Below are positions 244 through 25,697 of a stretch of 64,000 bases of DNA, piece by piece. The notes beneath the pieces were generated by a model, which saw only the letters and a list, made by a program, of their open reading frames with translations, was not told the DNA's origin and did not search any database. The translations under genes were made by a program, and so were the position numbers. Position 1 is the first letter of the stretch. Each line of letters starts with the position of its first letter. The DNA is from Winogradskyella undariae (GTDB lineage: Bacteria > Bacteroidota > Bacteroidia > Flavobacteriales > Flavobacteriaceae), in NCBI RefSeq assembly GCF_013285155.1, contig NZ_JABTEL010000001.1, forward strand, positions 186,001-250,000. Direction: 5' to 3'.

Positions 244-334
244 ACCATTCGTCGACAGTAAATAGTGTTTTGGCGTTCAATCGATTGTGTCAATCGAATA
301 TTAAAAGAAAACACGTGTTAAGAGGTTAATTTTG
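244..334 (+). promoter_or_regulatory. Candidate LytTR-type activator sites and -7 box for the T9SS protein
   Basis: Half-site CATTCGTCGACAG starts at 246. Related but weaker copies follow at 267 and 288 (TGTCAATCGAATA), which is 21-bp periodicity. The -7 box TAATTTTG is at 327-334. The last copy lies 43 bp from the TTTG, matching the proximal copy at the other four sites (43-44 bp), so 246 looks like an extra upstream repeat. Assignment to LytTR is inference; the repeats and spacing are seen directly. Confidence 0.55.
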
Positions 335-3873: not shown

Positions 3874-5937
3874 TTAGTTTCTCTTAAAAACCGCCTTCTT
3901 CAAAAATAACCATTTAAAACGTAAACCAATTTCAGTAAATGTAAAACCAGCAGCAGTTGCAGAAGCAATGTTACTTCGGGTTCCGTATAGATTTAATAAA
4001 CTACGCTCAGAGAATTTATAACCAAAAGCACCTTGTATTCTGTAAGCCGTTATTTTAGCATCATCTTCAATATATTGGTAACCAAAAGCTGCCGTTGCAT
4101 TGTAAAACCATTCTTTAGGTTTTGCAGCTGCTTCATCTTTAATGAGGTTTATAAATATTTCGTAATTATGAAATTTCTCAGGACTAAAATATACGGTTGG
4201 TAACTGATCTTTAAACGTAATATATTGGTAGTTAAAGCCAACTTTAAGAGAGGGTTTTGGTAATAAATTATAATATAATGAAGTAAATAACAAGTTTCTT
4301 TTGTTGCCATCATTTTGAGAGGTGTACATTAATTGTGTAAACCAACCTAAGTTAAAATTAGTACCTAAATTATAGTTAGCATAATAATTATTTTGCACCA
4401 ATTCACGGTCTAATAAGTCGGCATTAAAACTTTCAATTTGTCTTTTGTAACCAACATCTAAGGTTTGTAGTTTAAAGGATTTAATATTAAAAGAAAGATC
4501 TGTTAAAAGCTGTGTGTAATCATCAGATTCTGTGTTTGCAGAAGTCATACCTGCTGTACCTTTAAATGTGATGCTTGGTATAAATTTATAAGATAATCCT
4601 AAAGAAATATTATTAGAGGTTGCGCTATTGTCTGTAATGGTGTTATTGGTAGTTCTGTAGTTATAATTACCGAGTATAGCTACTTTTGTAGATAAAGGAA
4701 AGACCACGTTACTATTAAATGAATAAGCTTTGTTGTCTCCATTATCAAAAGTATGTGCTGCTTTAGATTCTAAAGTAGGAGCAAAGCTATTGTTTAATTT
4801 ATTTATAAAGTTTGTAGCATCTTTTTGGTTGTCGTAAAATTTTAAGGTGTTCTCTGCTGAGGTATAAGCTTCATCTATGTAGCCTAATGCCTTTAGTACA
4901 TTGGCTTTTCCTAGGTTACCATCAAAAGACGTACTGTCGTTTTCTAATATTTGGTTGTAATCGGTTAAACTCTTTTTAAAATTACTCTTATATATATTTA
5001 AAGTCGCACGTAGGGCTAAAACCCAGTTTTTGTTTGGGTTCTCAATAATTAATGTGTCAATTAAATTTGTTGCTGCTTTAAACTTCTTGTTCCAGATTAA
5101 AGCCTGTCCATAACGCTCTGTGGTTTGTTTAATAATATTTTGATCTGTGTTGTCATTTAAACTATTAAAAGCTTCAGTACTAATACTAAGTGCTTTCTTT
5201 TCTTTGCCATTTAAATGTTCTACCAAAGCTAAACCATTTAATGCTATGATTTTGTGTTCTGGTTGTTCTGCTAATCGATTGTACATGATTTTTGCACTCT
5301 CTAGCTTATTCCATATTAAATAGAGATTAGCTAAGTTTAATAAGGTGTCTTTATCATCTCCATATAACTCAAGGTTTTTGGTTAAAAGAATTTCGGCTTT
5401 ATCATAATTTTGTGCTTGTTGGTTTTGGTAAGCATAACCTAAATAGATATACTTTTTAGAGACTAAAGCATTTGGGTTTCCTGGTGAAACGTCTAAGGCT
5501 TTATTTACCATAGTTAAAGCATCTTCATATTCCTTTAAGTTAGAAAGTGTATTTGCAAAACCTAATAGTGCAGCAAAACTCTTTGGATCTTCAGTAACTA
5601 AACCTTTATAGTAAACTTTAGCATCAGTAAAATTGCTATTCCATAATAAAGACTCTCCGTAATTTAGTTTTACTTCAAAATCATTTGGGTAATCTGCGAG
5701 TAACGCTGTAAATAATAAATTAGCCTCTGCTGCTTGTCCGTTAAGTCCAATAGCACGACCATAACATAAACGTGCCGTTTTATTGTTTGGAAAGTCTTCT
5801 AATATTGTACTAAAGAAAGATTCAGCTTTATTATATTTTCCTGTTTCTAGGTAAGTAAAACCTTCTTTCATATCTTGAGCAGTGGCGCTAAAAACGATGA
5901 AAAATAAGCTGATATTAATAAGTGATTTTAATGTCAT
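3874..5937 (-). CDS. TPR outer-membrane protein with C-terminal beta-barrel (YaiO-like)
   Basis: I chose the ATG at 5937 because it begins directly with a signal peptide (TLKSLINISLFFIVFSATA, then Q); an upstream ATG at 5964 would add nine residues. Residues about 20-380 are tandem TPR motifs (YLETGKYNKAESFF, YGESLLWNSNF, LANTLSNLKEYEDAL, LANLYLIWNKLESA). The last ~270 residues are alternating aromatic beta-strands resembling the YaiO/BcsC-type barrel (LGLSYKFIPSITFKG, FNYQYITFKDQ). This TPR-plus-barrel layout is that of polysaccharide export proteins such as PelB, AlgK/E and BcsC. The gene is divergent from a flippase and a GT4, which supports export of a polymer across the outer membrane. 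Export role is inferred from architecture and neighbours. Confidence 0.75.
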   Translation of the reverse strand: MTLKSLINISLFFIVFSATAQDMKEGFTYLETGKYNKAESFFSTILEDFPNNKTARLCYGRAIGLNGQAAEANLLFTALLADYPNDFEVKLNYGESLLWNSNFTDAKVYYKGLVTEDPKSFAALLGFANTLSNLKEYEDALTMVNKALDVSPGNPNALVSKKYIYLGYAYQNQQAQNYDKAEILLTKNLELYGDDKDTLLNLANLYLIWNKLESAKIMYNRLAEQPEHKIIALNGLALVEHLNGKEKKALSISTEAFNSLNDNTDQNIIKQTTERYGQALIWNKKFKAATNLIDTLIIENPNKNWVLALRATLNIYKSNFKKSLTDYNQILENDSTSFDGNLGKANVLKALGYIDEAYTSAENTLKFYDNQKDATNFINKLNNSFAPTLESKAAHTFDNGDNKAYSFNSNVVFPLSTKVAILGNYNYRTTNNTITDNSATSNNISLGLSYKFIPSITFKGTAGMTSANTESDDYTQLLTDLSFNIKSFKLQTLDVGYKRQIESFNADLLDRELVQNNYYANYNLGTNFNLGWFTQLMYTSQNDGNKRNLLFTSLYYNLLPKPSLKVGFNYQYITFKDQLPTVYFSPEKFHNYEIFINLIKDEAAAKPKEWFYNATAAFGYQYIEDDAKITAYRIQGAFGYKFSERSLLNLYGTRSNIASATAAGFTFTEIGLRFKWLFLKKAVFKRN

Positions 5938-5982
5938 AATCTCTGTGTAATTTTCTAATTGCAAGTTACGGTGTTATAGTTT

Positions 5983-6053
5983 GTCATTCACCTACAGCAA
6001 CTTGCCATCCGTCGAAATATACAGAACATACACGGAAATACGTGAGATATTTG
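5983..6053 (+). promoter_or_regulatory. Candidate LytTR-type direct repeat and -7 box for the flippase
   Basis: CATTCACCTACAG at 5985 and CATCCGTCGAAAT at 6006 form direct repeats exactly 21 bp apart. A -7-like GATATTTG follows at 6046-6053. The first half-site lies 65 bp and the second 44 bp upstream of the TTTG, the geometry seen at the four other sites. The region is shared with the divergent TPR gene, but the orientation fits the flippase. Confidence 0.6.
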
Positions 6054-6082: not shown

Positions 6083-7348
6083 ATGAAGCAATTATTAGCA
6101 GCAATCAAATCAAGAAAGATAACACCAGAGCAACTGTTTATGGTAAGTGTTTTAGCTGTAAATGGAGGTAATTATTTATATAATCTTATATTAGGAAGGG
6201 TGCTTGGACCAACCGAATTTGCTGATGCTGCCGTATTAATAACTTTTTTATTGGTGCTGTCTTTTATGGCGATGACGTTTCAATTGGTTACCGCAAAATT
6301 CTCTGTGTTATTTGAAAATAATGTCTTTAAAAACTTCATTGCTAAAACTTATCAGCAAGCATTTTTAGTAGGAGTTATATTAGGAGTTTTAATCATTATT
6401 TTTTCGTCGCAGTTAAAAACAGTTTTTAACACATCTTCTTCTATGATGTTTGTTATTTTTGGTTGCGGTGTGCCTTTATATTTTTTAATGAGTGTTAATA
6501 GAGGAGCGTTTCAGGGTAAAAAAGCTTACAAGTCTTTATCTATAACCTATCAAAGTGAAATGTTAAGCCGATTGTTAATTACATTGGGTTTAATCTTTTT
6601 ATTCAATATACAATCATCAGCGGTCATTGCTATTGGCATTGTGTTGTCTTTTGTGTTCGGAATGTTTCCTTTCAAAACTAAAAATATCAATTTTAAAAAG
6701 TCGCAAGCTCTAGCTTTAGATGATAGCAAACAGATTAAAAACTTCTTTTTGTTAACGGCATTTTACGAGCTTACACAAATCATAATCAATAATAGTGATA
6801 TCTTACTGGTAAAACATTATTTTGAATCTTACGAAGCTGGTTTATACGCCTCATTAGCCTTAATAGGTAGAATTGTATATTTCATAGCTTGGATGTTTGT
6901 AATGTTATTGTTACCTGCAGTAGTAGAGTTGAAGAAAGAAGGTAAAGAAACGGCTTCTGTATTATTTAAATATGTAGGTTATATTGGTGTTATTTCAATT
7001 ATTATCGTTTTAACATGTTTAAGTTTTCCAGAGTTAATTATAAATATACTTTTTGGAGAACAATATATTTCTATGGCTCCTTTATTATGGAAATATGCCA
7101 TTGCTACCTCGATGTTTGCTATTTCTAACATCTTCGCTTATTACTATCTGTCTTTAGATAAATACGTGCCAGTAATCATTTCTGGAGTCTTTGGGATGCT
7201 CCAAATGCTATTAGTAGTCTTTTTTCATGATAGTTTAGAACAGGTAGTGCACATGCAAATTATAGCAATGATTTCATTGTTAATCATACAGTTAGTGTTT
7301 TTTAAGATTGAAATAGCAACACAGCAAAAGGTTTTGTCTAAAGAATAA
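6083..7348 (+). CDS. Polysaccharide flippase of the MOP superfamily (Wzx/PelG-like)
   Basis: A 421-residue polytopic protein with about 12 hydrophobic segments from residue ~20 to the end, and no other domain. The start (VLAVNGGNYLYNLILGRVLGPTEFADAAVLIT) is the typical first-helix signature of MOP flippases, with the LG.R.LGP.E.G-like pattern. Such proteins move lipid-linked sugars or polymer intermediates across the inner membrane. It is followed after ~110 bp by a GT4 and faces the TPR/beta-barrel gene, so it is likely the inner-membrane translocation step of this exopolysaccharide locus. It has its own promoter with the repeated activator motif. Substrate unknown. Confidence 0.8.
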   Translation: MKQLLAAIKSRKITPEQLFMVSVLAVNGGNYLYNLILGRVLGPTEFADAAVLITFLLVLSFMAMTFQLVTAKFSVLFENNVFKNFIAKTYQQAFLVGVILGVLIIIFSSQLKTVFNTSSSMMFVIFGCGVPLYFLMSVNRGAFQGKKAYKSLSITYQSEMLSRLLITLGLIFLFNIQSSAVIAIGIVLSFVFGMFPFKTKNINFKKSQALALDDSKQIKNFFLLTAFYELTQIIINNSDILLVKHYFESYEAGLYASLALIGRIVYFIAWMFVMLLLPAVVELKKEGKETASVLFKYVGYIGVISIIIVLTCLSFPELIINILFGEQYISMAPLLWKYAIATSMFAISNIFAYYYLSLDKYVPVIISGVFGMLQMLLVVFFHDSLEQVVHMQIIAMISLLIIQLVFFKIEIATQQKVLSKE

Positions 7349-7349
7349 T

Positions 7350-7419
7350 TCCATTCGTCTATAGTAAAAGTCGTCCCAACGAAAGTGATGATTTTTAGAG
7401 AAATAAAACATGAAATTTG
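7350..7419 (+). promoter_or_regulatory. Candidate LytTR-type direct repeat and -7 box for the GT4
   Basis: CATTCGTCTATAG starts at 7352 and a weaker second half-site GTCCCAACGAAAG is 21 bp further at 7373. The -7-like GAAATTTG is at 7412-7419. The distance from the first half-site to TTTG is 64 bp and from the second 43 bp. The site lies between the flippase stop and the glycosyltransferase start, so the GT4 has its own promoter of the same class. Confidence 0.6.
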
Positions 7420-7457: not shown

Positions 7458-8675
7458 ATGAAATTAGCTATTGTTACCGCATATCCACCTAGTAAAGTCA
7501 CTCTAAACGAGTATGCTTACCATTTAGTAAAGCAGTTTAGACAAAAGGAAGCGGTTACAGAACTAATTTTATTAACAGATAAAACTGAAGGTGCTAAGGA
7601 TATCGAATTTACTGAGCAAGGCTGTAAAATAACAGTCAAAGAATGTTGGTCTTTTAACAGTTATAAAAATATATTTTCAGTAACTAAAGCTATTAATGTT
7701 ACAAAACCAGATGCTGTATTATTCAACTTACAGTTTATGAAATTTGGCGATAAAAAAGTAGCAGCAGCTTTAGGATTAATGTTGCCATGGGTTTGTAAGT
7801 TAAAAAAGATTCCTAATATCGTTTTATTACATAATATTCTTGAAGAAGTAGATTTAGGAAGTGCTGGTTTTACATCAAATAAGTTAATGCAGAAAATTTA
7901 CGGATTTATCGGAACTAGTTTAACAAGGCTTATTTTACAAGCCGATACAGTAGCGGTAACAATGCAGAAATATGTAAATGTTTTAGAGATAAAATATTTA
8001 TCACCTAATATAAAATTGATACCTCATGGTACTTTTGAAATTGCGGAAGAACCAAGCTATAATTTACCAAAAGGGCCGATGCAAATTATGACCTTCGGGA
8101 AGTTTGGGACTTATAAAAAAGTGGAAGGAATGATCGAAGCAGTAGAATTAGTTAGAGCTAAAACAGGATTAGATTTAGAAGTTGTTATTGCAGGAACAGA
8201 TAATCCAAATGTTCCAGGATATTTAGCTAAAGTACAAGAGGTTTATAAACATGTTCCTCAGGTAAGATTTACAGGTTATGTTGAAGAACACGAGGTACCA
8301 ACCTTATTTAACGAAAGTGCGGTAGTTGTATTTCCTTACACATCGACTACAGGAAGCTCGGGTGTTTTACACCAAGCCGGAAGTTACGGAAAAGCTGTTG
8401 TAATGCCAGATTTAGGGGACTTAGCTTTGCTAGTACAAGATGAAGGTTATAGAGGTGAGTTTTTTGAACCAACGAGTATTGAAAGTTTAGCATCTGCCAT
8501 AGAGGCTATTGTAACCGATGAAGTTTATAGGTTACAACTTTCTAAAATTAATTATGAAGCTGCAACAGCACATCCAATGTCGCAAATAGCAGATATGTAT
8601 TTAGAAACTTTTTCAGACATTATTGCTAAAAAAGAGCATAGTTCAATGGCTGTTAACACAACTGTGATTAAGTAA
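7458..8675 (+). CDS. GT4-family glycosyltransferase
   Basis: A soluble 405-residue GT-B protein. The N-terminal Rossmann half begins KLAIVTAYPPSKVTLNEYAYH, as in glycogen-synthase-like GT4 enzymes. The C-terminal half (from about residue 210) carries the donor-site region: MTFGKFGTYKKVEGMIEAVE, VVIAGTDNPN, VRFTGYVEEHEVPTLFNES, then VVFPYTSTTGSSGVLHQAGSYGKAVVMPDLGDL. The usual E-x7-E donor motif is altered: TTGSSGVLHQAG stands where GxxE is common, which also occurs in some true GT4s. It acts in the cytoplasm, adding sugars to the growing exopolysaccharide, comparable in position to PelF. Donor and linkage cannot be told from sequence. Confidence 0.8.
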   Translation: MKLAIVTAYPPSKVTLNEYAYHLVKQFRQKEAVTELILLTDKTEGAKDIEFTEQGCKITVKECWSFNSYKNIFSVTKAINVTKPDAVLFNLQFMKFGDKKVAAALGLMLPWVCKLKKIPNIVLLHNILEEVDLGSAGFTSNKLMQKIYGFIGTSLTRLILQADTVAVTMQKYVNVLEIKYLSPNIKLIPHGTFEIAEEPSYNLPKGPMQIMTFGKFGTYKKVEGMIEAVELVRAKTGLDLEVVIAGTDNPNVPGYLAKVQEVYKHVPQVRFTGYVEEHEVPTLFNESAVVVFPYTSTTGSSGVLHQAGSYGKAVVMPDLGDLALLVQDEGYRGEFFEPTSIESLASAIEAIVTDEVYRLQLSKINYEAATAHPMSQIADMYLETFSDIIAKKEHSSMAVNTTVIK

Positions 8676-8720: not shown

Positions 8721-10235
8721 TTAATTAGAAATATATTTAAACGATTCCTTTTTTGCCCCATTTTTATCAATAAACCCAAAATGCTTTTGAGCATTTTTAC
8801 GCCAAGGAAGCCTTCCTACAACTTCCTTTGGTATATATGTAAAGTCATATAAAGTCCAAGACATAAATTGTAAGTTATTTGCTGCAATAAGTTCTTGGAT
8901 TTTTTTGTGATAATTAGCTTGGTCTTCTTCTGAAGATCCATGCGGTTTCCAAAAGCCAGAATAGGAAGAGATTCCAAATTCTTGTAACACTAAGGGTTTG
9001 TTTGGGATTTCTGTTTTTAAGGTTTTTATAGCTGTGTCTAATTGCTCTAAATCTTCATAGTAATGAAAGGATACTATATCTACTTTGTCTTTTAAAATAG
9101 GTGCACTTTGTGTATTAGACCAACCTATAGTGACCGGATGATGGCTGTCTATAGATTTTACGATGTCTATCATGTGGTCTAGCCATGCAACCACATTTGC
9201 TTTACCTCGAGATTCAAAATCTAAATTGGGCTCATTTTTAATATCCCAAGCAATAATAGCGTTGTGGTCTTTAAATGTAGAGACAATGATTTCAGCATGA
9301 CGTTGGTTTAAGGTCCAGTCCATCACCGAATAATCCCCGTAAAAATCGAAAAGCGTTAACACCACTTTTAAGTGTACAGCTTCAGCTAAATCTAAAGTTT
9401 GTTTAAGTTTTTCTAGCTTTTCTGGTTTTACATTAGCTTTTCCGAAGTCTTCATATTGCACAAAAATACGAACGGAATTTAATCCAGCGTCTTTTATGAT
9501 TTTAAAGTCTTTAGCAATAGTTTTAGTAGAAAAATCATCGCCAAACATATCCCAAGGATTAGCTTGCGGATAATAGTTGATGCCTTTAATATTAATATTA
9601 TCGGTTGCAATGGTTTTAGCTTCAAAATGGTATGGCTTACTTTCTTCTTTTACCAAATGCCGAATCCGCCAAAATCCATCTTCCAGTAAAAACACCATTT
9701 TATAGGTGGAGGTTTCGGTAGTTTCAAGTATCAGTTTTTCAGCTTTAAAAATACGTTTGTATTCTACCACATTTCTATCGGTAACGACTGCTAATTGTCC
9801 ATCTTCACTAAAAAATTCTAAAGTAGGATTATGGTTTAAGGTTGTGGCTTCTATGCTAATGTTTTTAGATTTGTTTAGGCTAATAAAATCATACAGGTTT
9901 TTTCTCGCACTATCGGTGTAATAATCTTTTATACCGGCTGTTTTGTTGCTCTTGTAAGCTATTTGTTTTACATACCAAGCATCCAAATAATCATTTTGTA
10001 AGGCATTTAAATTTTCGTTATCCATTGGTCGCCCTTCGTTTTGTAAAGGTTCCCAAGTTAATTTTGGTGTGTATTGTTCTACTTTTTGTATTTCAGTATG
10101 TAACATACTACTTCGGTCTGCACCTGTATTTAAGTAACTAAATAAGGCACTAACACCAGAAATAATAAAGGCAATAACCATAATATATGAGATAATTAAT
10201 ATGGTACGTAGTATGTTCTTGTTAAGACCTACCAT
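8721..10235 (-). CDS. Membrane-anchored clan GH-A glycoside hydrolase (GH5/GH2-like)
   Basis: One N-terminal membrane segment (residues ~10-32, ILRTILIISYIMVIAFIISG) anchors the protein. Residues ~50-200 form an alpha/beta NTF2-like region. The rest is a TIM barrel starting at IKGINYYPQANPWDMFG. The putative acid/base Glu is in WDIKNEPN near 335 and the nucleophile in LVLQEFG near 419, the standard clan GH-A pair, so the enzyme should be active. It overlaps the next gene upstream by 7 bp and is the last gene of a three-gene minus-strand operon with an Ig-like protein and a PTPS-related membrane protein. A hydrolase inside an exopolysaccharide locus usually trims or releases the polymer (compare PelA, BcsZ). 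Substrate unknown. Confidence 0.75.
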   Translation of the reverse strand: MVGLNKNILRTILIISYIMVIAFIISGVSALFSYLNTGADRSSMLHTEIQKVEQYTPKLTWEPLQNEGRPMDNENLNALQNDYLDAWYVKQIAYKSNKTAGIKDYYTDSARKNLYDFISLNKSKNISIEATTLNHNPTLEFFSEDGQLAVVTDRNVVEYKRIFKAEKLILETTETSTYKMVFLLEDGFWRIRHLVKEESKPYHFEAKTIATDNINIKGINYYPQANPWDMFGDDFSTKTIAKDFKIIKDAGLNSVRIFVQYEDFGKANVKPEKLEKLKQTLDLAEAVHLKVVLTLFDFYGDYSVMDWTLNQRHAEIIVSTFKDHNAIIAWDIKNEPNLDFESRGKANVVAWLDHMIDIVKSIDSHHPVTIGWSNTQSAPILKDKVDIVSFHYYEDLEQLDTAIKTLKTEIPNKPLVLQEFGISSYSGFWKPHGSSEEDQANYHKKIQELIAANNLQFMSWTLYDFTYIPKEVVGRLPWRKNAQKHFGFIDKNGAKKESFKYISN

Positions 10236-11443
10236 AGTGTTTTGGTATTTATTTTTTTTGTTTTTCCCGCCGTTTTTATGCTGAAATTATAATCGCCATT
10301 TTGATACATTGCGTGTTTTAAATTGAAATTAACATAACCATTAAAAGATGTTTTTATAATGCTATCAATTAAAACTTGGTCTCTATAGATGTTTAATGTT
10401 ACATGTAAGCCATCAGGAATCATTTGCCCCATAAAACTATGTAAAGGACCAACGGTTATTGTTCTATTTTTATTTGAAAATAAGATGTCAAAATCTTCAA
10501 TAACTTGTTTATAAGTTAGTGTAATGTTATCGCTTTCAGACATGCCATCTACGTAAGCTTTAATACGCCAAGTGTCTTCGTAATCTGGATGGATTATTTT
10601 TGCTTGTGCAATACCATCTATAGTTGTCCCTGTAGTTTTTAAAATATTCTGATTCTTATTGGTAATGTAAAAGGTGACAAACGTCCCATCGCTTACTACA
10701 TTTTTTTGCTTGTCCGTAATAATGGACGTTGTAAAAGTGGTCACCTGATTGCCATCAGCATATTGATGAGGTCGCGTTGCTGAAATGTTGAAATCTGTAG
10801 GGATAGCAGAAGCTACATTTATGGTAAATTCTTTTGAGTTAATACCTAAGCTTTCTGAAGACACTAACATACGACCACTTTCTTTTTTTGAATAAATATT
10901 CCTAAAGGCGATTAAATTGTTGGTGTAAATAGCGTTTGTTTCTTCGGAATCTAAAAATTGATGCTTTTCTGTGACTAAAGTATTTGTAGGAACGGGATTG
11001 TCTAATGAATCCGTTGGAATAATGACTAGCATGGTGTAGTCTGTACCACCAGCTTCAATACTTGGCGGTCCAATATAGGTTTCCATAGTAGCAACTTCAG
11101 CTTTTGGTTTAATGTTGAAGCTTCCTTTTATAGAAGTTGTTTTGTCTGTTAATATCCAATTTACAACACCTGTTTTTTTAGTTATGTGTTCTGGAAATGT
11201 ATATTCTAAGGTTTTTGAATTTAAAACACCAGAAATTAACGTCGAACCAAAACTGTTAGAGCAATAAAGTAAAGGTTGCTCTCCATTTGAAGTAGAAAAT
11301 TTTAAAACAATAGGATTTCCAACCTCATATTGTGTTTGGGTTGTAATTAGTTTAATCCTACTGCCTTCGTTTTGTTGTTTCACAGCAAAAGAGGATAATA
11401 AAATTAATCCTAAAAGGAATAGATATGTGTGTTTGATTGGCAT
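10229..11443 (-). CDS. Secreted protein with Ig-like beta-sandwich repeats
   Basis: A signal peptide (HTYLFLLGLILLSSFAV) precedes ~380 residues rich in beta strands. These look like three or four Ig-like or macroglobulin-like domains, with phrases such as YEVGNPIVLKFST, PPSIEAGGTDYTMLVI and DGNQVTTFTTSIITDKQKNVVSDGTFVTF, the last resembling invasin/BIG-type modules. I cannot assign an enzyme function. The start codon shares one base with the stop of the large membrane protein upstream (TAATG), and the end overlaps the hydrolase gene by 7 bp, so the three are translationally coupled. Most likely a periplasmic partner of the exopolysaccharide machinery. Confidence 0.7.
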   Translation of the reverse strand: MPIKHTYLFLLGLILLSSFAVKQQNEGSRIKLITTQTQYEVGNPIVLKFSTSNGEQPLLYCSNSFGSTLISGVLNSKTLEYTFPEHITKKTGVVNWILTDKTTSIKGSFNIKPKAEVATMETYIGPPSIEAGGTDYTMLVIIPTDSLDNPVPTNTLVTEKHQFLDSEETNAIYTNNLIAFRNIYSKKESGRMLVSSESLGINSKEFTINVASAIPTDFNISATRPHQYADGNQVTTFTTSIITDKQKNVVSDGTFVTFYITNKNQNILKTTGTTIDGIAQAKIIHPDYEDTWRIKAYVDGMSESDNITLTYKQVIEDFDILFSNKNRTITVGPLHSFMGQMIPDGLHVTLNIYRDQVLIDSIIKTSFNGYVNFNLKHAMYQNGDYNFSIKTAGKTKKINTKTLW

Positions 11444-14400
11444 TAATTAGGGTTTCCTATATAGGTGTTTATTTCTATTTTAATATAACTAAAATCTGGA
11501 TGGTCAATTTTTTGTAATTGTGCTTCTGAATGGTTTTCAATTCTGTTAGGTACTATTTTACTAGCAATAGCATCGTTTGGTAGACCGTTAATAAAAATAT
11601 TTTTCATGTCATCACTAATGATTTTTACTTTTCCATTTTTTAAAATTTCATATTCAAAATCTTGTTTTCGTTGTTGTCTTACACCTGCTTTTACAAATAA
11701 ATGATCTACCCAAACCATGTTTTTATCTGCATCATAATACGTAATTAATAGTTGAGGTATTGTAATTTCTTGAATTCCACTATTAAATAAATTTCCAGTA
11801 ATGGTTTCGTCTTTAATATCAATAGCGCTTAAAACAACACTTTTATATAAGTCTGATCCAGAAACATTTCCTGCAGCTTGTAAATTGAATTTGGTGGGTT
11901 GTTCTTCAAATTCAACGGGTGTAAATTCATCAGGATTAAAGGTGTCAGGAATAGAGTCTTGCGTTTTAGACCAGGCAATACCTTCAAAATTAATTCTAAA
12001 ACTGCTCGATTCTTTAGGCATCAATTTATGCTTCATATGGTATTTGGCGTTGTACGTAGCAAGTTGTTTATTTGCATCGTTGTACAATGTTCCTTTTAAA
12101 ATAACATCTGCAGGGACATTATCGATGTTTTGTACTTCACCTATAATTGCATAATGACCATTGTATTGGACCAGTTTTGCAGATACAACTTCTAAAACGG
12201 GTTGTTTTAAAATGTCTTCATGATGGGTTTGTTCTGTGGTAATACGACGTCTACCTTGATTAAAATATTTGGTAGCATTGGCAGAATACAATTGGTCTGG
12301 TGGTAAATCGTTATTTAATTCGTCGGGTTGTAAATACCATTTTTGATTTCGTTTAGATAAGGTTTTGTAATCTACCTTTTCAATCTTTTCTAAAGGTGTA
12401 ATCCACTGACTCGTCACCTTTGCAGAGACAGTGCTGTCATTATAGGCTGTGATTTCAGTTTCAATTGCATCCATTTTGGCATAACTACTCAGTAAACCAT
12501 CAGTTACCGAAATTTCTAACATATACTGAGCAATAGGTAGTTTGCTTTGTGGGTCGATTAAGCTGTGAGCTTTTTCAAATTCTTTAAAATCTAAAGCATC
12601 ATAATAGGCTATTATGGCATTTTCTGGACTGCGTTGCGAGTCGTTTTTTAAATAGAATAAATAGATGCCATAAAATACTATGACAGCCAAAAACAATGAC
12701 CAAACATGAGTGATTCTTAATACATTTCTATTAAATTTAGAGTAAGAAGCCGAATACTTTAAAAAATCAGGAATAGGTTTTATGCGTGTTTTTAGCATAT
12801 TAACCCAAAGCATTTGTATGTTTAAAGCAAAGGCGATTAATACGGTTAGAAAAGGAATAACACCCCACATTATTTTTAACCAAGTAGCAACATCTTCTTT
12901 TGGTAAAATAGAAGATACAGGTGGAATATTAAGGCGTTCCCAAACCATAATGCCATTTTCTAACTGTCGTAAACGTTGCCAACCACAGAAATAAAGAATA
13001 GGGTCGTAAAATTTATCGTTAGAAAATATGTATTTGAGGTTGTATTTTTCTGGTGTAGTTAAAAATTGTTGTAACGATCCAATACCAGCAACGCCTTTAA
13101 ATTTAGAGTTTTCTAAGCGTTCTATTGGTCTTGTGGTTAATTCGGGTAAACGTCTTGCAGAGTGGTAGTTTCCATCTACGGTTAAAGCATTGGTTTGTGC
13201 ACTTAACCAAGCCATTTGGTCGCCAAAACCAAGGGTTAAAAACCGCCATTTATCATGATCGTCTTGATTTAAGAAATTCACAATGGGTAACATCTTTATT
13301 TTCTGTGGTTGCGAGGGTCTAAAATAGTTGAGACTCATGGTGAAAACGACCATAAAAACAGCAAGTCCTGCTAGTAATCCTCCAATAATACGATGGTAAA
13401 CGGCACCAAACTTTTCTTGAATTAATGTCTTTAAATCACCTTCAACTAAACGATAGGCAAATTCACCCATTAAAGGGATGGATAAAATAGAGGCCCAAAG
13501 TGTAAAGCGGTCTAAGGTTAAAATATTAAAAGCAGTTTCGCCTAACATTTTAAGAGGAATAGGGGTTGTGCCACCAGTTCCTAAAATAGTACAAATGGTT
13601 ACAGATAACCCAAAAAACAAATAGCGTTTGCTGTAATACCTGTAAAATATGTAAGGTAATAGGACTAACAAAATTCCCCAAGGAATTAGAAAGAAGACTA
13701 AACCAGAAGATGTGATTTCTAAAAAATTATCGCGAGAGCCATGCGGTATTGGTACTTGTGTAATTGGGTTGGCTTTAGAGTTTAACCAATACGGAAAAAT
13801 ACAACCAACAATTAATACTAAAGATAACATCCCAAAGCTTACAATACGTTTAAAGAGCTTTAAAAAGCTACTCCAAAATAACTTAAAAGTTACCTCTTTC
13901 ATTGTGTTGACTTGACCTCTAGAAACATCCATTATAACCATTCCTATTAACGGGAAAATAAAAAAGATCATTCCAAAAATAGGAGTCACATGATGAGAGG
14001 TAACGGTTACAGCAATAAGTGATAAACTAGTTGCTAAATACCATTTTTTACCTGTTTTTAACCATAAATAGATTTCTGGTAAGGCATGCATTAATACAGA
14101 AACACCTATAATGCTTGGTAATTGCCCAAATATGTGAAGCGTTTCTACAAAAGAGGATGAAAAGACAGCTAAGATAGAAGCATAACCAGCAACAGTTTTA
14201 TTACCTGTCATCATTAGAGAAAAACGATATGTACCTGTAATAAATAATACAATAGCTATTAATGCGACACTAAACATGCCAAATTTTAAGCCGCCAATTA
14301 GTGAGAGTAAACCTATAGATTGGTGAACTAATGGCGGATAGCTTTGTACTGTAAAACCAGTATACCATTCATAATTCCATGGTTCAAACCAACTATGTGC

Positions 14401-14532
14401 ATAATGATCTGCAAAAAACAGATGTATTAAAGCATCATAAGTTGTTTCCAAAGTAAAAAAAATGGCACTACCATGAAAAGCTAATCCTAAGAGAAGCGCA
14501 GATATTAAGTATTTATTTGAGGTTTCCTTCAT
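11443..14532 (-). CDS. Large PTPS-related polytopic membrane protein, putative GT-C-like enzyme
   Basis: 1029 residues. The first ~560 contain a dozen or so membrane helices and the PTPS-related membrane signature: an early Asp in TTYDALIHLFFADHYAHSW, then WNYEWYTGFTVQSYPPL and a TSHH motif near residue 180. The early loop Asp and helical layout resemble GT-C glycosyltransferases that use polyprenyl-phosphate sugars. Two more helices lie at about 560 and 630. The C-terminal ~380 residues are a periplasmic domain with an NTF2-like part (SPENAIIAYYDALDFKEFEKAHSLID) and beta-rich segments. It is first in the minus operon with the Ig-like protein and hydrolase, and divergent from the receiver-GT2 gene. 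An Alg5-like GT2 would make the kind of lipid-linked donor such an enzyme uses; that pairing is inference. Confidence 0.7.
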   Translation of the reverse strand: MKETSNKYLISALLLGLAFHGSAIFFTLETTYDALIHLFFADHYAHSWFEPWNYEWYTGFTVQSYPPLVHQSIGLLSLIGGLKFGMFSVALIAIVLFITGTYRFSLMMTGNKTVAGYASILAVFSSSFVETLHIFGQLPSIIGVSVLMHALPEIYLWLKTGKKWYLATSLSLIAVTVTSHHVTPIFGMIFFIFPLIGMVIMDVSRGQVNTMKEVTFKLFWSSFLKLFKRIVSFGMLSLVLIVGCIFPYWLNSKANPITQVPIPHGSRDNFLEITSSGLVFFLIPWGILLVLLPYIFYRYYSKRYLFFGLSVTICTILGTGGTTPIPLKMLGETAFNILTLDRFTLWASILSIPLMGEFAYRLVEGDLKTLIQEKFGAVYHRIIGGLLAGLAVFMVVFTMSLNYFRPSQPQKIKMLPIVNFLNQDDHDKWRFLTLGFGDQMAWLSAQTNALTVDGNYHSARRLPELTTRPIERLENSKFKGVAGIGSLQQFLTTPEKYNLKYIFSNDKFYDPILYFCGWQRLRQLENGIMVWERLNIPPVSSILPKEDVATWLKIMWGVIPFLTVLIAFALNIQMLWVNMLKTRIKPIPDFLKYSASYSKFNRNVLRITHVWSLFLAVIVFYGIYLFYLKNDSQRSPENAIIAYYDALDFKEFEKAHSLIDPQSKLPIAQYMLEISVTDGLLSSYAKMDAIETEITAYNDSTVSAKVTSQWITPLEKIEKVDYKTLSKRNQKWYLQPDELNNDLPPDQLYSANATKYFNQGRRRITTEQTHHEDILKQPVLEVVSAKLVQYNGHYAIIGEVQNIDNVPADVILKGTLYNDANKQLATYNAKYHMKHKLMPKESSSFRINFEGIAWSKTQDSIPDTFNPDEFTPVEFEEQPTKFNLQAAGNVSGSDLYKSVVLSAIDIKDETITGNLFNSGIQEITIPQLLITYYDADKNMVWVDHLFVKAGVRQQRKQDFEYEILKNGKVKIISDDMKNIFINGLPNDAIASKIVPNRIENHSEAQLQKIDHPDFSYIKIEINTYIGNPN

Positions 14533-14592: not shown

Positions 14593-14682
14593 TAATTATC
14601 TATAGTAATCTACCATTCATCTACACTTGTCTATAAGTTAAACTAAATAAGAATTTTATAAACGTCTTCTAGACTACTTTTG
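14593..14682 (+). promoter_or_regulatory. Candidate LytTR-type repeats and -7 box for the receiver-GT2 gene
   Basis: CATTCATCTACAC starts at 14614 and a related copy, TAATTATCTATAG, starts 21 bp upstream at 14593 (8 of 13 positions identical). The -7 box TACTTTTG is at 14675-14682, with its TTTG 65 bp from 14614. The 21-bp downstream copy found at other sites is not evident here. The region also separates the divergent membrane-protein operon. Confidence 0.55.
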
Positions 14683-14713: not shown

Positions 14714-15889
14714 ATGAAAGTTTTAGCTATAGATGATCAACAGCTAGTATTACTTCCTTTACAAAAAAGGTTAGTTGAATTAGGTTATGAGGTAAAAATA
14801 GAAACTGATGCTACTGAAGGATTAAAATTATATGAATCGTTTAATCCAGATTTAGTGATTGTAGATATTAACATGCCAGGTTTATCTGGGTTAGACTTTG
14901 TAAGATATATTAGAGAGACTAAGAATTCTCAAATACCAATCATGGTTTTGTCTGGAAACACGAAAGACGAAACTATTACAGAAGGATTTGAGTTAGGTAT
15001 TAATGATTACATGAAAAAACCTTTAAGCCTAAATGAAATCAGTGCACGTGTAAAGCGTTTAATTGGTGCTCCAGAAATGCGAAACTCTGTCGCAAATAGT
15101 GATGTAATGATCCAAGAGCGTTGTGTTGGTGTTGTCATACCTTGTTATAATGAAGAAGAACGTTTATTTAGAGATGAATTTATTAGTTATATAGATAAAA
15201 ATTCAGGCTATCATTTGTGTTTTGTAAACGATGGAAGTACGGATAAAACTCTAGAACTTTTAAAAGATTTACAAAAGGGAAGAGAAGATTTTATTACGGT
15301 TTATGATTGTGAAAAAAATGGAGGAAAAGCTGAAGCTGTACGTTTAGGTATGTTGCATATGTCTAAAAAAGCAGATTTAGATTATATAGGCTTTTTAGAT
15401 GCCGATTTATCTACAGATTTAGCAGATTTTGATGATTTAGTAAAGACGATTGAAACCTCTGATTTTAAAATTGTGAGTGGTTCTAGGATTTCTAGGATGG
15501 GAGCAGATATAACTAAAGAGTCTGCACGAAAAATTATAAGTCTTACAATTAATTTTATTATCAGAAAGATTTTAAAAATGGACTTTAAAGACACGCAATG
15601 TGGTGCCAAAATATTTAGTAAAGATGTTATTGAGATTGCATTTGGTGAAAAATTTGTAACACAATGGATTTTTGATGTAGAAATTTTTAAAAGAATGAGT
15701 ATCCATTTTGGTTTAAAAAAGGCTAAAGCTATGCTATGCGAACAACCTTTAAAACGCTGGATTCATGCCGATGGTTCAAAACTATCAATGAAAGATTCTG
15801 TAAAAATAGTTGGGCAATTAGCACAAATAGCTTGGGTTTATAGATCTAAAAAATCAGATGGAAAACCAGCTAAAATAGAAGTAGCATAA
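14714..15889 (+). CDS. Response-regulator receiver fused to Alg5-like GT2 glycosyltransferase
   Basis: Residues 1-120 are a complete CheY-like receiver: acidic pair Asp7/Asp8, phospho-acceptor Asp51 in VIVDINMPG, switch Ser80, Tyr99 and Lys102 in YMKKP. From ~136 a GT2 domain follows: VVIPCYNEEERLF, FVNDGSTDKT, donor/metal motif DAD at 229-231, SGSRISRMGA, DTQCGAKIF near 293-301, and WIFDVEIFKRM. The last blocks are characteristic of dolichyl/polyprenyl-phosphate glucosyltransferases. All catalytic motifs are present. There are no clear membrane helices beyond a short hydrophobic stretch near 275-288. The design suggests that phosphorylation controls synthesis of a lipid-linked sugar. No histidine kinase lies nearby. 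Begins the plus-strand group with a degenerate GT2 and manA. Confidence 0.9.
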   Translation: MKVLAIDDQQLVLLPLQKRLVELGYEVKIETDATEGLKLYESFNPDLVIVDINMPGLSGLDFVRYIRETKNSQIPIMVLSGNTKDETITEGFELGINDYMKKPLSLNEISARVKRLIGAPEMRNSVANSDVMIQERCVGVVIPCYNEEERLFRDEFISYIDKNSGYHLCFVNDGSTDKTLELLKDLQKGREDFITVYDCEKNGGKAEAVRLGMLHMSKKADLDYIGFLDADLSTDLADFDDLVKTIETSDFKIVSGSRISRMGADITKESARKIISLTINFIIRKILKMDFKDTQCGAKIFSKDVIEIAFGEKFVTQWIFDVEIFKRMSIHFGLKKAKAMLCEQPLKRWIHADGSKLSMKDSVKIVGQLAQIAWVYRSKKSDGKPAKIEVA

Positions 15890-15908: not shown

Positions 15909-16391
15909 ATGAAGATTGGAATTATAATAATATTTCATAATAATGAAACAGATATAGATAAATCGTTCTTTATAGACCAGATTAAGAGCTCAGAACATAT
16001 TGAAATATGTTTTGTAGATAACGAAAGTAAAGATGAGACATTAAATCATTTAGACGATATAAAAGAAGTCTGCCCTGATAAGGTTTCTGTTATAGAAATT
16101 AAAAGAAATGTATCAGAGATTGCTGCAACCAAAGCAGGAGCTAGATATATGTTTAATGAGTTTAATTTAAAACATATAGGATATGTTAATGCGAATGCTT
16201 TAAAACGAAATGGACTTATTTTGAGTACATTAATTAAACGTTTTTGTACACATAAAGATGTCATTATTGACTTTAATTTAAAAATAATAAAAGATCAAGA
16301 GATCAAAAAAACATTATTTAAAAGTGTTTTTTCTGTTGTAGAATATTTGCAACATATTGAAAAATCTTCTCTAGTAATCCCAACTACTTAA
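15909..16391 (+). CDS. Short GT2-like protein lacking the DXD motif
   Basis: 160 residues with a GT2-type Rossmann start (KIGIIIIFHNNETDI, then CFVDNESKDETL, keeping Asp37 of the nucleotide-binding site). Where GT2 enzymes have the metal-binding DXD, this has Asn-Ala-Asn at 94-96 (GYVNANALKR). The protein ends shortly after, about half to two thirds of a usual GT2 domain. It lies 19 bp after the receiver-GT2 gene and 19 bp before manA, so it belongs to the operon. It is probably not a catalyst; it may be a regulatory or structural partner of the active GT2 before it, or a decayed duplicate. The frame is clean, so it is likely expressed. Confidence 0.65.
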   Translation: MKIGIIIIFHNNETDIDKSFFIDQIKSSEHIEICFVDNESKDETLNHLDDIKEVCPDKVSVIEIKRNVSEIAATKAGARYMFNEFNLKHIGYVNANALKRNGLILSTLIKRFCTHKDVIIDFNLKIIKDQEIKKTLFKSVFSVVEYLQHIEKSSLVIPTT

Positions 16392-16410: not shown

Positions 16411-17379
16411 ATGCAAACTTATCCTATAAGATTTAAACCCATTTTAAAAGAAAAAATATGGGGAGGGCAAAAACTTTCTACACTTTTAAATAAATCTTCA
16501 AATTCTAAAAATGTCGGTGAGAGTTGGGAAATATCAGGGGTAGAAGGTGATATTTCTACTGTGTCTAATGGTGTTTATAAAGGGTTATCATTAAACGACT
16601 TAATAAAGAGATATAAAAATGAATTCTTAGGGAAGTCTAATATTGTTACTTTCGGAGAAAAATTTCCATTATTAATAAAGTTTTTAGATGCTAAAACTAA
16701 TTTATCAGTACAAGTACACCCAGATGATAAAATAGCAAAGGCACATCATAAATCTTTCGGTAAAACAGAAATGTGGTACATAATGGATAGTGATGATGAT
16801 GCTGAAATTGTTTTAGGTTTAAAGAATAATGATGTCGATAAAAGTGTGTTAGCAGATATTAATGCTTCTAATGTAAATACAATTTTTAATACCGAAAGAG
16901 TAAAACAAGGGGATAGCTATTTTATTCCAGCAGGAAAAATTCATGCTATTGGAGCAGGTATTTTGGCAGCCGAAATTCAGCAAACAAGCGATATTACATA
17001 CCGTGTTTACGATTGGGATCGTAAAGATGCTAACGGAGTACAAAGAGAATTACATACCGAATTAGCCCAAGAGGCTACCAAATCGTTTTCCTCAAACGGA
17101 AAAAGTGATTACCAATTAACCCAAAATGAAACTTGTAATTTAGTGAATTGTGATTTCTTTACAACTAATATTTTTGAAGTAAAAGGCACAGAATATAAAA
17201 GTTATAAAAACCTTGATAGTTTTGTGATTTTTATGTGTGTAGAAGGTGTTGTAGAAATTAAAGTAGAAGATAGTAATGAACTGATTAAAATGGGAGAAAC
17301 CATTTTAATTCCTGCTAATACAAAAGAGGTGGTTTTTAGTGCTCAACAATCTAAACTACTAGAGATCTTTATTGCTTAG
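16411..17379 (+). CDS. manA: Mannose-6-phosphate isomerase, class I
   Basis: Interconverts fructose-6-phosphate and mannose-6-phosphate, the entry to GDP-mannose for polysaccharide synthesis. The 322-residue length fits the short bacterial type. The cupin zinc-site motifs are visible: LSVQVHPDD near 110, KTEMWYIM, and FIPAGKIHAIGAGILAAEIQQTSD in the second half. The N-terminus FKPILKEKIWGGQKL is typical. It closely follows the two GT2 genes, so it probably supplies mannose-type precursors to the exopolysaccharide. The symbol follows family usage. Confidence 0.92.
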   Translation: MQTYPIRFKPILKEKIWGGQKLSTLLNKSSNSKNVGESWEISGVEGDISTVSNGVYKGLSLNDLIKRYKNEFLGKSNIVTFGEKFPLLIKFLDAKTNLSVQVHPDDKIAKAHHKSFGKTEMWYIMDSDDDAEIVLGLKNNDVDKSVLADINASNVNTIFNTERVKQGDSYFIPAGKIHAIGAGILAAEIQQTSDITYRVYDWDRKDANGVQRELHTELAQEATKSFSSNGKSDYQLTQNETCNLVNCDFFTTNIFEVKGTEYKSYKNLDSFVIFMCVEGVVEIKVEDSNELIKMGETILIPANTKEVVFSAQQSKLLEIFIA

Positions 17380-25165: not shown

Positions 25166-25236
25166 ACCATTCGTCTACAGAGTGCTTTGGTCCATCGATT
25201 TTCTAACTTTCTTCCTTTGTCTTCCAACTACATTTG
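25166..25236 (+). promoter_or_regulatory. Candidate LytTR-type direct repeat and -7 box for the 135-aa protein
   Basis: CATTCGTCTACAG starts at 25168, the cleanest copy of the motif. A second half-site, GGTCCATCGATTT, is 21 bp downstream at 25189. The -7 box TACATTTG is at 25229-25236. First and second half-sites lie 65 and 44 bp before its TTTG, exactly as upstream of the flippase. Confidence 0.6.
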
Positions 25237-25289: not shown

Positions 25290-25697
25290 ATGTTAATTTT
25301 AATATTTTTCTCAATACTTTTAATAAGTTGTATTCTTTCTTTATTAGAATATAAATATGCTAATTATTTATATTATTTTATGAATTTGTATCATGTTATT
25401 TCTAATCATAGTGATGTAGTCGTTAAGACTAGTAATCCAATAAGGGTTAGTTCTCAGAAAGATACTCTTTATATAGATAATAAAATAAAAGAGGCAAGTA
25501 AAGAACTTAAAAGGAATTTAAATCACTTAGATCTTATCACAGGAATTGAAGAGTCTTTTATGAAGGTCGCTTCTAACGATAGTTGTATAGAGCGATTACA
25601 GGAGTATTTGAAATTAAAAAAAGAAATTCAATTAAAAATTATTGAATTATCTAAACTTATGGCGGACTATCAGATTAATAAAATTGAGTCATATTAA
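25290..25697 (+). CDS. Unknown 135-residue single-pass membrane protein
   Basis: I do not recognise the family. The first ~18 residues are strongly hydrophobic (LILIFFSILLISCILSLLEY) and could be a membrane anchor or, less likely, a signal peptide. The rest is polar with a predicted helical, coiled-coil-like half (KIKEASKELKRNLNHLDL, then CIERLQEYLKLKKEIQLKIIELSKLM). It is a single gene with its own promoter bearing the repeated activator motif seen at the exopolysaccharide genes, which is the only clue to its role. No clear terminator follows; the next gene has its own start after ~140 bp. Confidence 0.65.
   Translation: MLILIFFSILLISCILSLLEYKYANYLYYFMNLYHVISNHSDVVVKTSNPIRVSSQKDTLYIDNKIKEASKELKRNLNHLDLITGIEESFMKVASNDSCIERLQEYLKLKKEIQLKIIELSKLMADYQINKIESY

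Follow-up and report, generated by a model that had tools for sequence, protein, structure and literature searches.

The window analysed here is a stretch of 64,000 nucleotides of Winogradskyella undariae (assembly GCF_013285155.1, contig NZ_JABTEL010000001.1, positions 186,001 to 250,000). It contains a gene, called H below, whose product joins a response regulator receiver to a family 2 glycosyltransferase (GT2) in a single chain. H belongs to what we read as a conserved exopolysaccharide (EPS) locus, whose genes are lettered A to J in Table 1. Next to this locus lies an operon for an H-NOX-containing phosphorelay, and the relay operon and several genes of the locus share a promoter box. We consider it fairly probable that a His-Asp relay, itself probably sensing nitric oxide (NO), controls matrix synthesis twice, i.e. 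through transcription and through phosphorylation of H. In other words, H probably loads a sugar onto a lipid carrier for the slime coat, and the cell may switch coat-making on or off directly at this enzyme.

A receiver joined to a glycosyltransferase

An earlier note on this DNA had claimed that both domains lie in one chain, each with its full set of signature residues, and this was borne out. The open reading frame (ORF) of 391 codons matches both Pfam families (Table 1), and D7, D8, D51, S80, Y99, K102, the DAD motif at 229-231 and DTQCGAK at 293-299 are all found where that note had placed them. The GT2 homology extends past the Pfam core to about residue 377, and the two halves are connected by a linker of about 20 residues (19-24 across homologues).

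The conservation of the protein was calculated from 49 aligned homologues that are 50-89% identical to the window protein. Receiver residues D7, D8, D51, S80 and K102 are invariant in all 49, and so are D229, A230, D231, D293, Q295, C296, G297, A298 and K299 of the glycosyltransferase. The five receiver residues are also present in 91 of 91 full-length rows of a larger, partly redundant set (93 aligned rows, from which two partial ones were left out). The mean pairwise identity within the family is 0.62 for the receiver, 0.74 for the glycosyltransferase and 0.28 for the linker. The receiver carries the residues by which response regulators are recognised (DD, phospho-acceptor D, S/T and K) and has a Foldseek match to 2a9o with TMt 0.94; canonical receivers were matched by the N-terminal part of the AlphaFold2 model (pLDDT 82.8, pTM 0.79). 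E108 and R112 are kept in 49/49 homologues and D98 in 48/49. By eye, we take these positions to correspond to the alpha4-beta5-alpha5 dimer face of OmpR/PhoB receivers, and this match suggests that H dimerises when phosphorylated.

It could be asked whether H is a chance ORF, a frameshift join or a mis-assembly. These candidates were ruled out because the one-chain fusion recurs in many genomes. The single frame of the opposite strand that was translated contains many stops.

The glycosyltransferase half and its predicted partner

Like the polyprenyl-phosphate GT2 group (ArnC, GtrB, DPMS), H has a GT-A fold with a DXD motif (the invariant DAD), and its closest fold matches belong to this group. 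A sequence search of the glycosyltransferase part against solved structures gave ArnC (E 7.4e-8), GtrB (7.9e-6) and DPM synthase (1.3e-5), and in Foldseek ArnC (E 1.2e-12), GtrB and DPMS were among the best matches. The name "Alg5-like" used previously fits at the level of the superfamily; the best solved matches are the three just given. C-terminal transmembrane helices are a feature of the GtrB/ArnC subfamily, and as they are missing from H, the candidates GtrB and ArnC were rejected as names for it. Beyond residue 345 the model has a single 17-residue helix (359-375), followed by a low-confidence tail. Since membrane helices are absent, the modelled protein is probably peripheral.

Gene G, divergent from H with 181 bp between them, encodes the predicted partner. 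No Pfam family matched this protein. Its model, of medium quality (pLDDT 64.8), has the transmembrane fold of the GT-C class as judged by superposition with STT3 (8agb; Z 19.7, 322 aligned residues, root-mean-square deviation 4.3) and ArnT (5f15; Z 15.4, 315 aligned, deviation 4.9), and residues 1 to about 405 also align with AglB, AftA, PMT and PglB. The best Foldseek match reaches only E 1e-3, and the list of matches leaves room for other GT-C families. GT-C enzymes use polyprenyl-phosphate-sugar donors. The textbook pair is ArnC-ArnT, in which the GT2 enzyme makes the polyprenyl-phosphate sugar and the GT-C enzyme uses it with lipid A as the acceptor. Unlike H-G, that pair has no receiver, and ArnC has membrane helices.

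Distribution and origin of the fusion

Three sets of genomes were used: 37 same-genus genomes (counting that of the window), a scan of named genomes from which the best 80 loci were taken, and a sample of 395 genomes of the class, drawn evenly. The full fusion is present in 17 of the 37 same-genus genomes. Among the best 80 named loci, 65 (L021-L085) match H over both domains; by their titles these are 62 Flavobacteriaceae (we assume this family placement for the genera named), a Cytophagales metagenome-assembled genome (MAG; L078), Cytophaga sp. FL35 (L080) and a Saprospiraceae MAG (L081). In the class sample, 31/395 genomes have a hit with E at most 1e-40, and in six of them the hit spans the receiver. 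The other 25 are receiver-less GT2s of 35-49% identity. The computations support a GT2 resembling polyprenyl-phosphate-sugar synthases, joined to a receiver in an EPS locus, as an arrangement conserved across Flavobacteriaceae. One of the six genomes (G402) is labelled as another family; H is 84% identical there, and relay and EPS region are both present (L132, L133), for which horizontal transfer or a matter of labelling are possible explanations.

G regularly accompanies the fusion. Within the stretches examined it is present in 62/65 named loci (the remaining three being a 3-kb contig, L080 and L081) and in 7/395 genomes of the class sample, namely the six with the fusion and one, G200, with a receiver-less form. 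G is also present in G070, G080, G081 and G354, genomes in which the linkage of the relay is doubtful.

The neighbourhoods of 11 of the 25 receiver-less GT2s were read. The locus is common only to L121, where the gene order is D-E-F-G-H. A distant E-like hydrolase is close to the GT2 in L123 and L124 (26% and 23% identity), and no gene of the EPS locus was seen in the other eight. A second receiver-less GT2 beside G, L086, came from the named-genome scan; its order is F-G-H, with G in two pieces. We note that in L124 an H-like GT2 is itself fused to a GT-C-like membrane protein (8943-11219, 758 residues; PMT_2 E 2.5e-4, below the cut-off).

The glycosyltransferase domains of 49 fusions and 18 receiver-less proteins, two of the latter being the same gene, were placed in a tree. 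A branch with support 100/95 separates all fusions from the rest, so that the tree needs a single origin of the fusion. The next rows outside this branch are L086 and then L121, i.e. the receiver-less GT2s that adjoin G; the order of these two is unsure because several long branches were flagged, L086 included. The most economical reading of these sequences is that a GT2 already present in this locus gained a receiver, the alternative being receiver loss in both L121 and L086. Two copies of H were observed in several Maribacter and some same-genus genomes (L057, L066, L103, L136), in tandem in L136. In Lacinutrix neustonica (L051) C, D and G are fragmented and H is shortened, probably by sequencing errors.

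The H-NOX relay operon

Seven co-directional genes close the 20 kb that precede the window (L101) and end 29 bases before window base 1. They encode a stand-alone REC protein (138 residues), an H-NOX protein, a PAS kinase (780), a FIST protein, a second kinase (349), a histidine phosphotransfer protein (Hpt; 105) and a REC-LytTR regulator (238). Pfam found no receiver in either kinase, and the set is therefore a complete His-Asp-His-Asp relay in pieces. The H-NOX protein matches PF07700 with E 2.5e-40 (138.5 bits against a cut-off of 25.5). What we take to be the proximal His is conserved in 34/34 sequences, as are Y and S of the presumed YxSxR motif, in which R is found in 29/34 and K in 5/34. 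The Hpt scores 22.3 bits for PF01627 against a cut-off of 24.6, and its H55, within HKLKH, is kept in 45/45. The phospho-residues of three further components are likewise kept, i.e. the Asp of REC in 31/31, the Asp of the LytTR regulator in 42/42 and the His of the shorter kinase in 33/33. These sets of 31 to 45 sequences were filtered by length and identity and include relays of genomes without H.

A search of receiver-GT2 fusions for kinase partners and a conserved neighbourhood, proposed in the earlier note, brought up this relay as the candidate. Within the genus, H-NOX is present in 17/17 genomes with the fusion and in 6/20 without it, the species being non-independent; in 16 of the 17 it is found upstream of H, sharing its contig and strand, and in G003 the two genes are on separate contigs. 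In the class sample H-NOX occurs in 72/395 genomes overall and in all six with the fusion, upstream on the same contig in five. From the 65 named loci, 24 genomes were examined for the relay. H-NOX is present in all 24, and in 21 it is upstream of H, on the same strand and at a distance of 13.9-24.4 kb (in 15 of these 21 the contig was confirmed by its length, and six have matching coordinates only). Fifteen linked relays were read gene by gene: REC, the PAS kinase and Hpt are present in 15, LytTR in 14, and FIST with its kinase in 10. In L080 the relay is on another contig, together with B-E and G.

A promoter box shared by relay and locus

An alignment of the G/H intergenic region from the window and 15 relatives showed a conserved ACCATTCGTCkACA about 100 bp upstream of H (two of 17 relatives, with long intergenic regions, were excluded). 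A matrix built on the 15 relatives, the window being left out, was scanned over both strands of 84 kb. All of the top seven matches are on the + strand. Two of them, spaced by 21 bp, precede the relay operon, and the other five precede A, C, D, H and the 135-residue ORF at 25290. In 200 first-order Markov simulations the number of hits scoring at least 13.5 was 0.39 on average and 2 at most, against 7 observed. Box pairs at 21 bp occur only upstream of rec and C; the weaker box at C ranks under three unrelated sites. The ORF at 25290-25697, 9 kb from the locus, is a predicted additional member of the regulon.

The 4.2-Mb genome has three copies of the exact core CCATTCRTCKACA, one each upstream of A, H and the ORF at 25290, and none of its reversed control. 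Across 58 further genomes the exact core was counted 121 times and the reversed control 7 times. The fusion is present in 38 of these genomes, which together have 115 exact copies: 89 are at most 30 kb upstream of H and on the same strand, none is on the opposite strand, and 26 are elsewhere, four of these belonging to a second copy of the region in G063. An exact box is found 96-126 bp before H in 22/38 fusion genomes. Same-genus genomes without H-NOX (n=14) have three exact copies in total. We note that in G063 (Tamlana nanhaiensis, L141) a single contig has H-NOX and boxes at two places some 189 kb from each other, a duplication that may be real or assembly-derived.

What makes the box significant is the matrix scan together with the whole-genome counts of its exact core. 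Simpler searches told less. The consensus with three mismatches gave 8 matches versus 4.7 expected, which is not significant, and a simple LytTR regular expression gave almost none. A generic promoter and terminator scan stayed at chance level, and inverted and direct repeats in the intergenic regions were nothing notable. The box presumably resembles the LytTR consensus, and the REC-LytTR protein is the obvious candidate for its binder.

Relays without the fusion

Six same-genus genomes have H-NOX and lack the fusion, and in three of them other EPS cassettes adjoin the relay. In G016 and G027 the cassette includes a UDP-sugar dehydrogenase, an epimerase, a stand-alone REC and a fusion of a receiver-like domain to a phosphoglycosyl transferase (PGT), with matrix-scored boxes before the dehydrogenase. 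The receiver-PGT of G016 matches PF00072 (E 5e-8) and PF02397 (E 9e-53), and that of G027 was read by eye. Both receiver-PGTs (L161 13805-14986, L163 2430-3617) have a receiver that looks degenerate by eye, and a complete stand-alone REC adjoins. In G007 the relay adjoins a GT2 synthase, a TackOD1 protein, a dehydrogenase and an HlyD-like protein, and boxes are present; the TackOD1 (thaumarchaeal output domain) protein of this EPS-like locus is at L156 4340-5734. In G024 and G028 the relay is near the usual flanking genes of the locus and there is no cassette. G026 was too fragmentary to read.

As different cassettes stand beside relay and box, these look like a controller for exchangeable matrix loci. 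The swapped cassettes support control of the matrix by the relay, yet they also show that the relay needs no H.

The exopolysaccharide locus

C, D, E, F, G and H occur together in 59/65 named loci, and B was seen in 49/65, a count bounded by the length of the flanks. The predicted functions of these genes (Table 1) are the reason why we read the locus as an EPS locus. It could not be named after a known EPS system: NCBIfam gave weak matches to PgaA and EpsE, and no search was aimed at Pel or others. Protein I, which lacks the C-terminal half of the enzyme and was seen in 18/65 named loci, is perhaps a pseudoenzyme subunit.

Table 1. Genes, domains and promoter boxes of the locus (window positions)
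Feature	Position	Strand	Remark
Promoter box, exact core	244..257	+	upstream of A
A, T9SS-sorted secreted protein (DUF6923; T9SS, type IX secretion system)	361..2961	+	
B, tetratricopeptide repeat (TPR) protein, weakly similar to PgaA export porin	3874..5964	-	
Two boxes 21 bp apart, matrix scores 8.0 and 17.2	5983..6017	+	upstream of C
C, Wzx/MATE-like polysaccharide transporter	6083..7348	+	
Promoter box, matrix score 18.2	7350..7363	+	upstream of D
D, GT4 glycosyltransferase	7458..8675	+	
E, glycoside hydrolase-like, GH2-type TIM barrel	8721..10235	-	N-terminal membrane anchor by eye
F, probably exported, weak immunoglobulin-like matches (Big_1, Invasin_D3)	10229..11443	-	both below Pfam cut-off
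G, 1029-residue membrane protein, predicted partner of H	11443..14532	-	GT-C fold in residues 1 to about 405
Promoter box ACCATTCATCTACA, exact core	14612..14625	+	102 bp upstream of H
H, receiver-GT2 fusion, 391 residues	14714..15889	+	single ORF, ATG to stop
REC domain of H, residues 3-113, phospho-acceptor D51	14720..15052	+	Pfam PF00072 (Response_reg) E 1e-24
GT2 core of H, residues 140-306, DAD 229-231, QCGAK 295-299	15131..15631	+	Pfam PF00535 (Glycos_transf_2) E 1e-21
I, truncated GT2-like protein, 160 residues, DAD replaced by NAN	15909..16391	+	directly after H
J, mannose-6-phosphate isomerase (ManA)	16411..17379	+	TIGR00218 over cut-off
Promoter box, top matrix score, exact core	25166..25179	+	124 bp upstream of 135-residue ORF 25290-25697

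Proposed mechanism and alternatives

In the mechanism that we propose, H would be a response regulator whose GT2 output transfers sugar from a nucleotide-sugar to polyprenyl phosphate at the cytoplasmic face of the membrane. G would take the lipid-linked sugar outside the cytoplasm and build or decorate the exopolysaccharide, which C (Wzx-like), D (GT4), E (hydrolase-like) and B (TPR porin-like) would help to make, trim and export. H would be an end point of a split phosphorelay with two outputs: H-NOX, and the FIST/NosP-like protein where present, would tune the cytoplasmic kinases, and phosphate would pass via the stand-alone REC to Hpt and from there to both REC-LytTR and the receiver of H. 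REC-LytTR would bind the box that precedes the relay operon and genes A, C, D and H; the receiver, once phosphorylated, would switch the synthesis of the donor lipid, probably through alpha4-beta5-alpha5 dimerisation. Architecture, residue conservation, folds, the single origin, synteny and the distribution of the box are the observations behind this scheme; whatever it says on the phosphodonor of H, the ligand of the system, the sugar, the direction of the effect, LytTR as box binder, phosphotransfer or catalysis is what we infer from them. The earlier note had put polyprenyl-phosphate-sugar synthesis, rather than transcription, under two-component control. This is too narrow, since the relay includes REC-LytTR and the box places the gene of H in the same predicted regulon, so that control at both levels is probable.

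Several observations weigh against the scheme. In the AlphaFold2 model of H there is no counterpart to the C-terminal membrane helices of GtrB and ArnC, and the model of G is of low confidence at residues 401-546. The FIST protein scores 59.8 bits (E 2.3e-16) with the NosP model of NCBIfam, far under the cut-off of 450, which is why we call it FIST/NosP-like only. FIST and its kinase are missing from 5/15 linked relays, and LytTR was not detected in one of the 15 (L148). In Zunongwangia (L050) the whole relay is elsewhere, unlinked to H; in the Saprospiraceae genome (L081) H stands by itself, and a genome-wide search gave no close Hpt; and in G354 H-NOX is on another contig with REC and kinase only, a close Hpt being located near a contig end. 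The exact box is missing from the contig of H in 6/38 fusion genomes (G354, G066, G067, G068, G069, G070) and was found nowhere in the H-less genomes G016 and G027. The relay occurs without H in five same-genus genomes, two of which have no adjoining EPS cassette. Finally, the relatives are non-independent samples.

An unlikely alternative concerns the signal, i.e. the system would sense oxygen or redox state and not NO. According to PMC8738867, H-NOX proteins may answer signals other than NO, e.g. oxidation. Against this, the FIST/NosP-like partner and the pairing with kinases resemble NO pathways, even if the FIST pair is sometimes missing.

It is rather improbable that the receiver of H obtains its phosphate from another kinase or from acetyl phosphate while the relay acts on the locus via LytTR only. 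Synteny cannot show kinase-regulator pairing, REC-LytTR would suffice as an output of the relay, the five same-genus genomes keep the relay without H, and L050 and L081 have H with no relay nearby. Nevertheless, the linkage of relay and H is conserved over many genera, H is within the same predicted regulon, and one stand-alone Hpt could serve several receivers.

Two further alternatives are quite improbable, the first being that the receiver is conserved as a module for dimerisation or docking, with control by expression and little effect of phosphorylation. Receivers can indeed be protein-protein modules, and E108 and R112, two invariant residues, are on the likely dimer face; but equally invariant are D7, D8, D51, S80 and K102 (49/49), which a scaffold could dispense with, and the receivers of the PGT fusions in H-less relatives, degenerate by eye, indicate that decay is possible, yet none is seen in H. 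The second, that the GT2 domain sugars another acceptor of the EPS pathway and makes no polyprenyl-phosphate sugar, can appeal to the missing helices of GtrB and ArnC and to the weak sequence matches to solved structures (E 7.4e-8 at best), but polyprenyl-phosphate glycosyltransferases are the top fold matches, the pairing with the GT-C-fold protein G is constant, and L124 has a GT2/GT-C-like fusion.

Dual control by the relay remains our preferred reading. A wider one, which we offer tentatively, is that in bacteria without cyclic di-GMP (c-di-GMP) an NO-sensing relay acts directly on lipid-linked sugar synthesis, with a single Hpt serving a LytTR regulator as well as a receiver-fused polyprenyl-phosphate sugar synthase, and that relay and box are a portable controller. 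Its cassettes would be REC-GT2 with GT-C, stand-alone REC with receiver-PGT, and a third with TackOD1 and a GT2 synthase. The supposed absence of c-di-GMP from fusion bacteria comes from the search for GGDEF: none was found in the own genome, and in 45 other fusion genomes no match passed the cut-off, one being sub-threshold (G023), in a search that was positive in 8/14 control genomes.

Relation to known systems

PorX is a response regulator of Bacteroidota with an enzyme-like output domain, and PorX structures were among the Foldseek matches of H. Its output domain is another one, and so is its pathway (type IX secretion).

The word "unusual", applied to H in the earlier note, is justified, although precedents are in print. 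In Myxococcus xanthus EpsW~P activates the phosphoglycosyl transferase EpsZ at the protein level, according to PMC12802240, which also cites small PGTs with receiver domains. As proposed for H, a phosphorylated receiver acts there directly on a polyprenyl-linked EPS enzyme. However, EpsW is a separate protein, EpsZ is a PGT and the input is the Dif chemosensory system, whereas H is a fused GT2 with an H-NOX/Hpt relay as its candidate input. MTH_548 of Methanobacteriaceae has a receiver or receivers fused to a GT2-family enzyme, like H; it differs in being archaeal, with a BcsA-like glycosyltransferase (PF13641) and one or two receivers, and the likeness is drawn from its description in PMC5847659, whose passages on it give no gene neighbourhood; the same paper also treats the TackOD1 domain.

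On the side of the relay, the HnoX-HahK-SypF-syp system of Vibrio fischeri is similar in that H-NOX acts on a kinase, probably one that feeds an Hpt, and controls exopolysaccharide; its output as described in PMC8738867 is induction of the syp regulon, and the passages used mention no receiver-glycosyltransferase enzyme. H-NOX and NosP pathways are described in PMC6769237 and PMC8846402. Shewanella HnoX-HnoK-HnoB and Legionella NosP-NahK-NarR (PMC8846402) likewise combine H-NOX or NosP, a kinase and a receiver enzyme and are biofilm-related, but their enzymes make or break c-di-GMP, while no GGDEF over the cut-off was seen in the 46 fusion genomes here. In the literature covered, which leaves out older response-regulator censuses, we found neither a receiver-GT2 fusion of Bacteroidota nor a description of this locus. 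Direct receiver control of an EPS enzyme, receiver-glycosyltransferase fusion and an H-NOX-to-EPS relay are each already known; what is new here is the relay linked to REC-GT2.

Direct control of polysaccharide enzymes by receivers is a young question (EpsW-EpsZ dates from 2025). In H, switch and enzyme are in one chain without obvious membrane helices, and receiver-less relatives adjoin the same partner gene. As partner enzyme and regulon are predicted and the candidate relay is complete, every step is open to biochemistry on purified proteins. If the proposed mechanism is true, it would be a route from NO to matrix production in marine Flavobacteriia without detected GGDEF, c-di-GMP being the usual output of NO.

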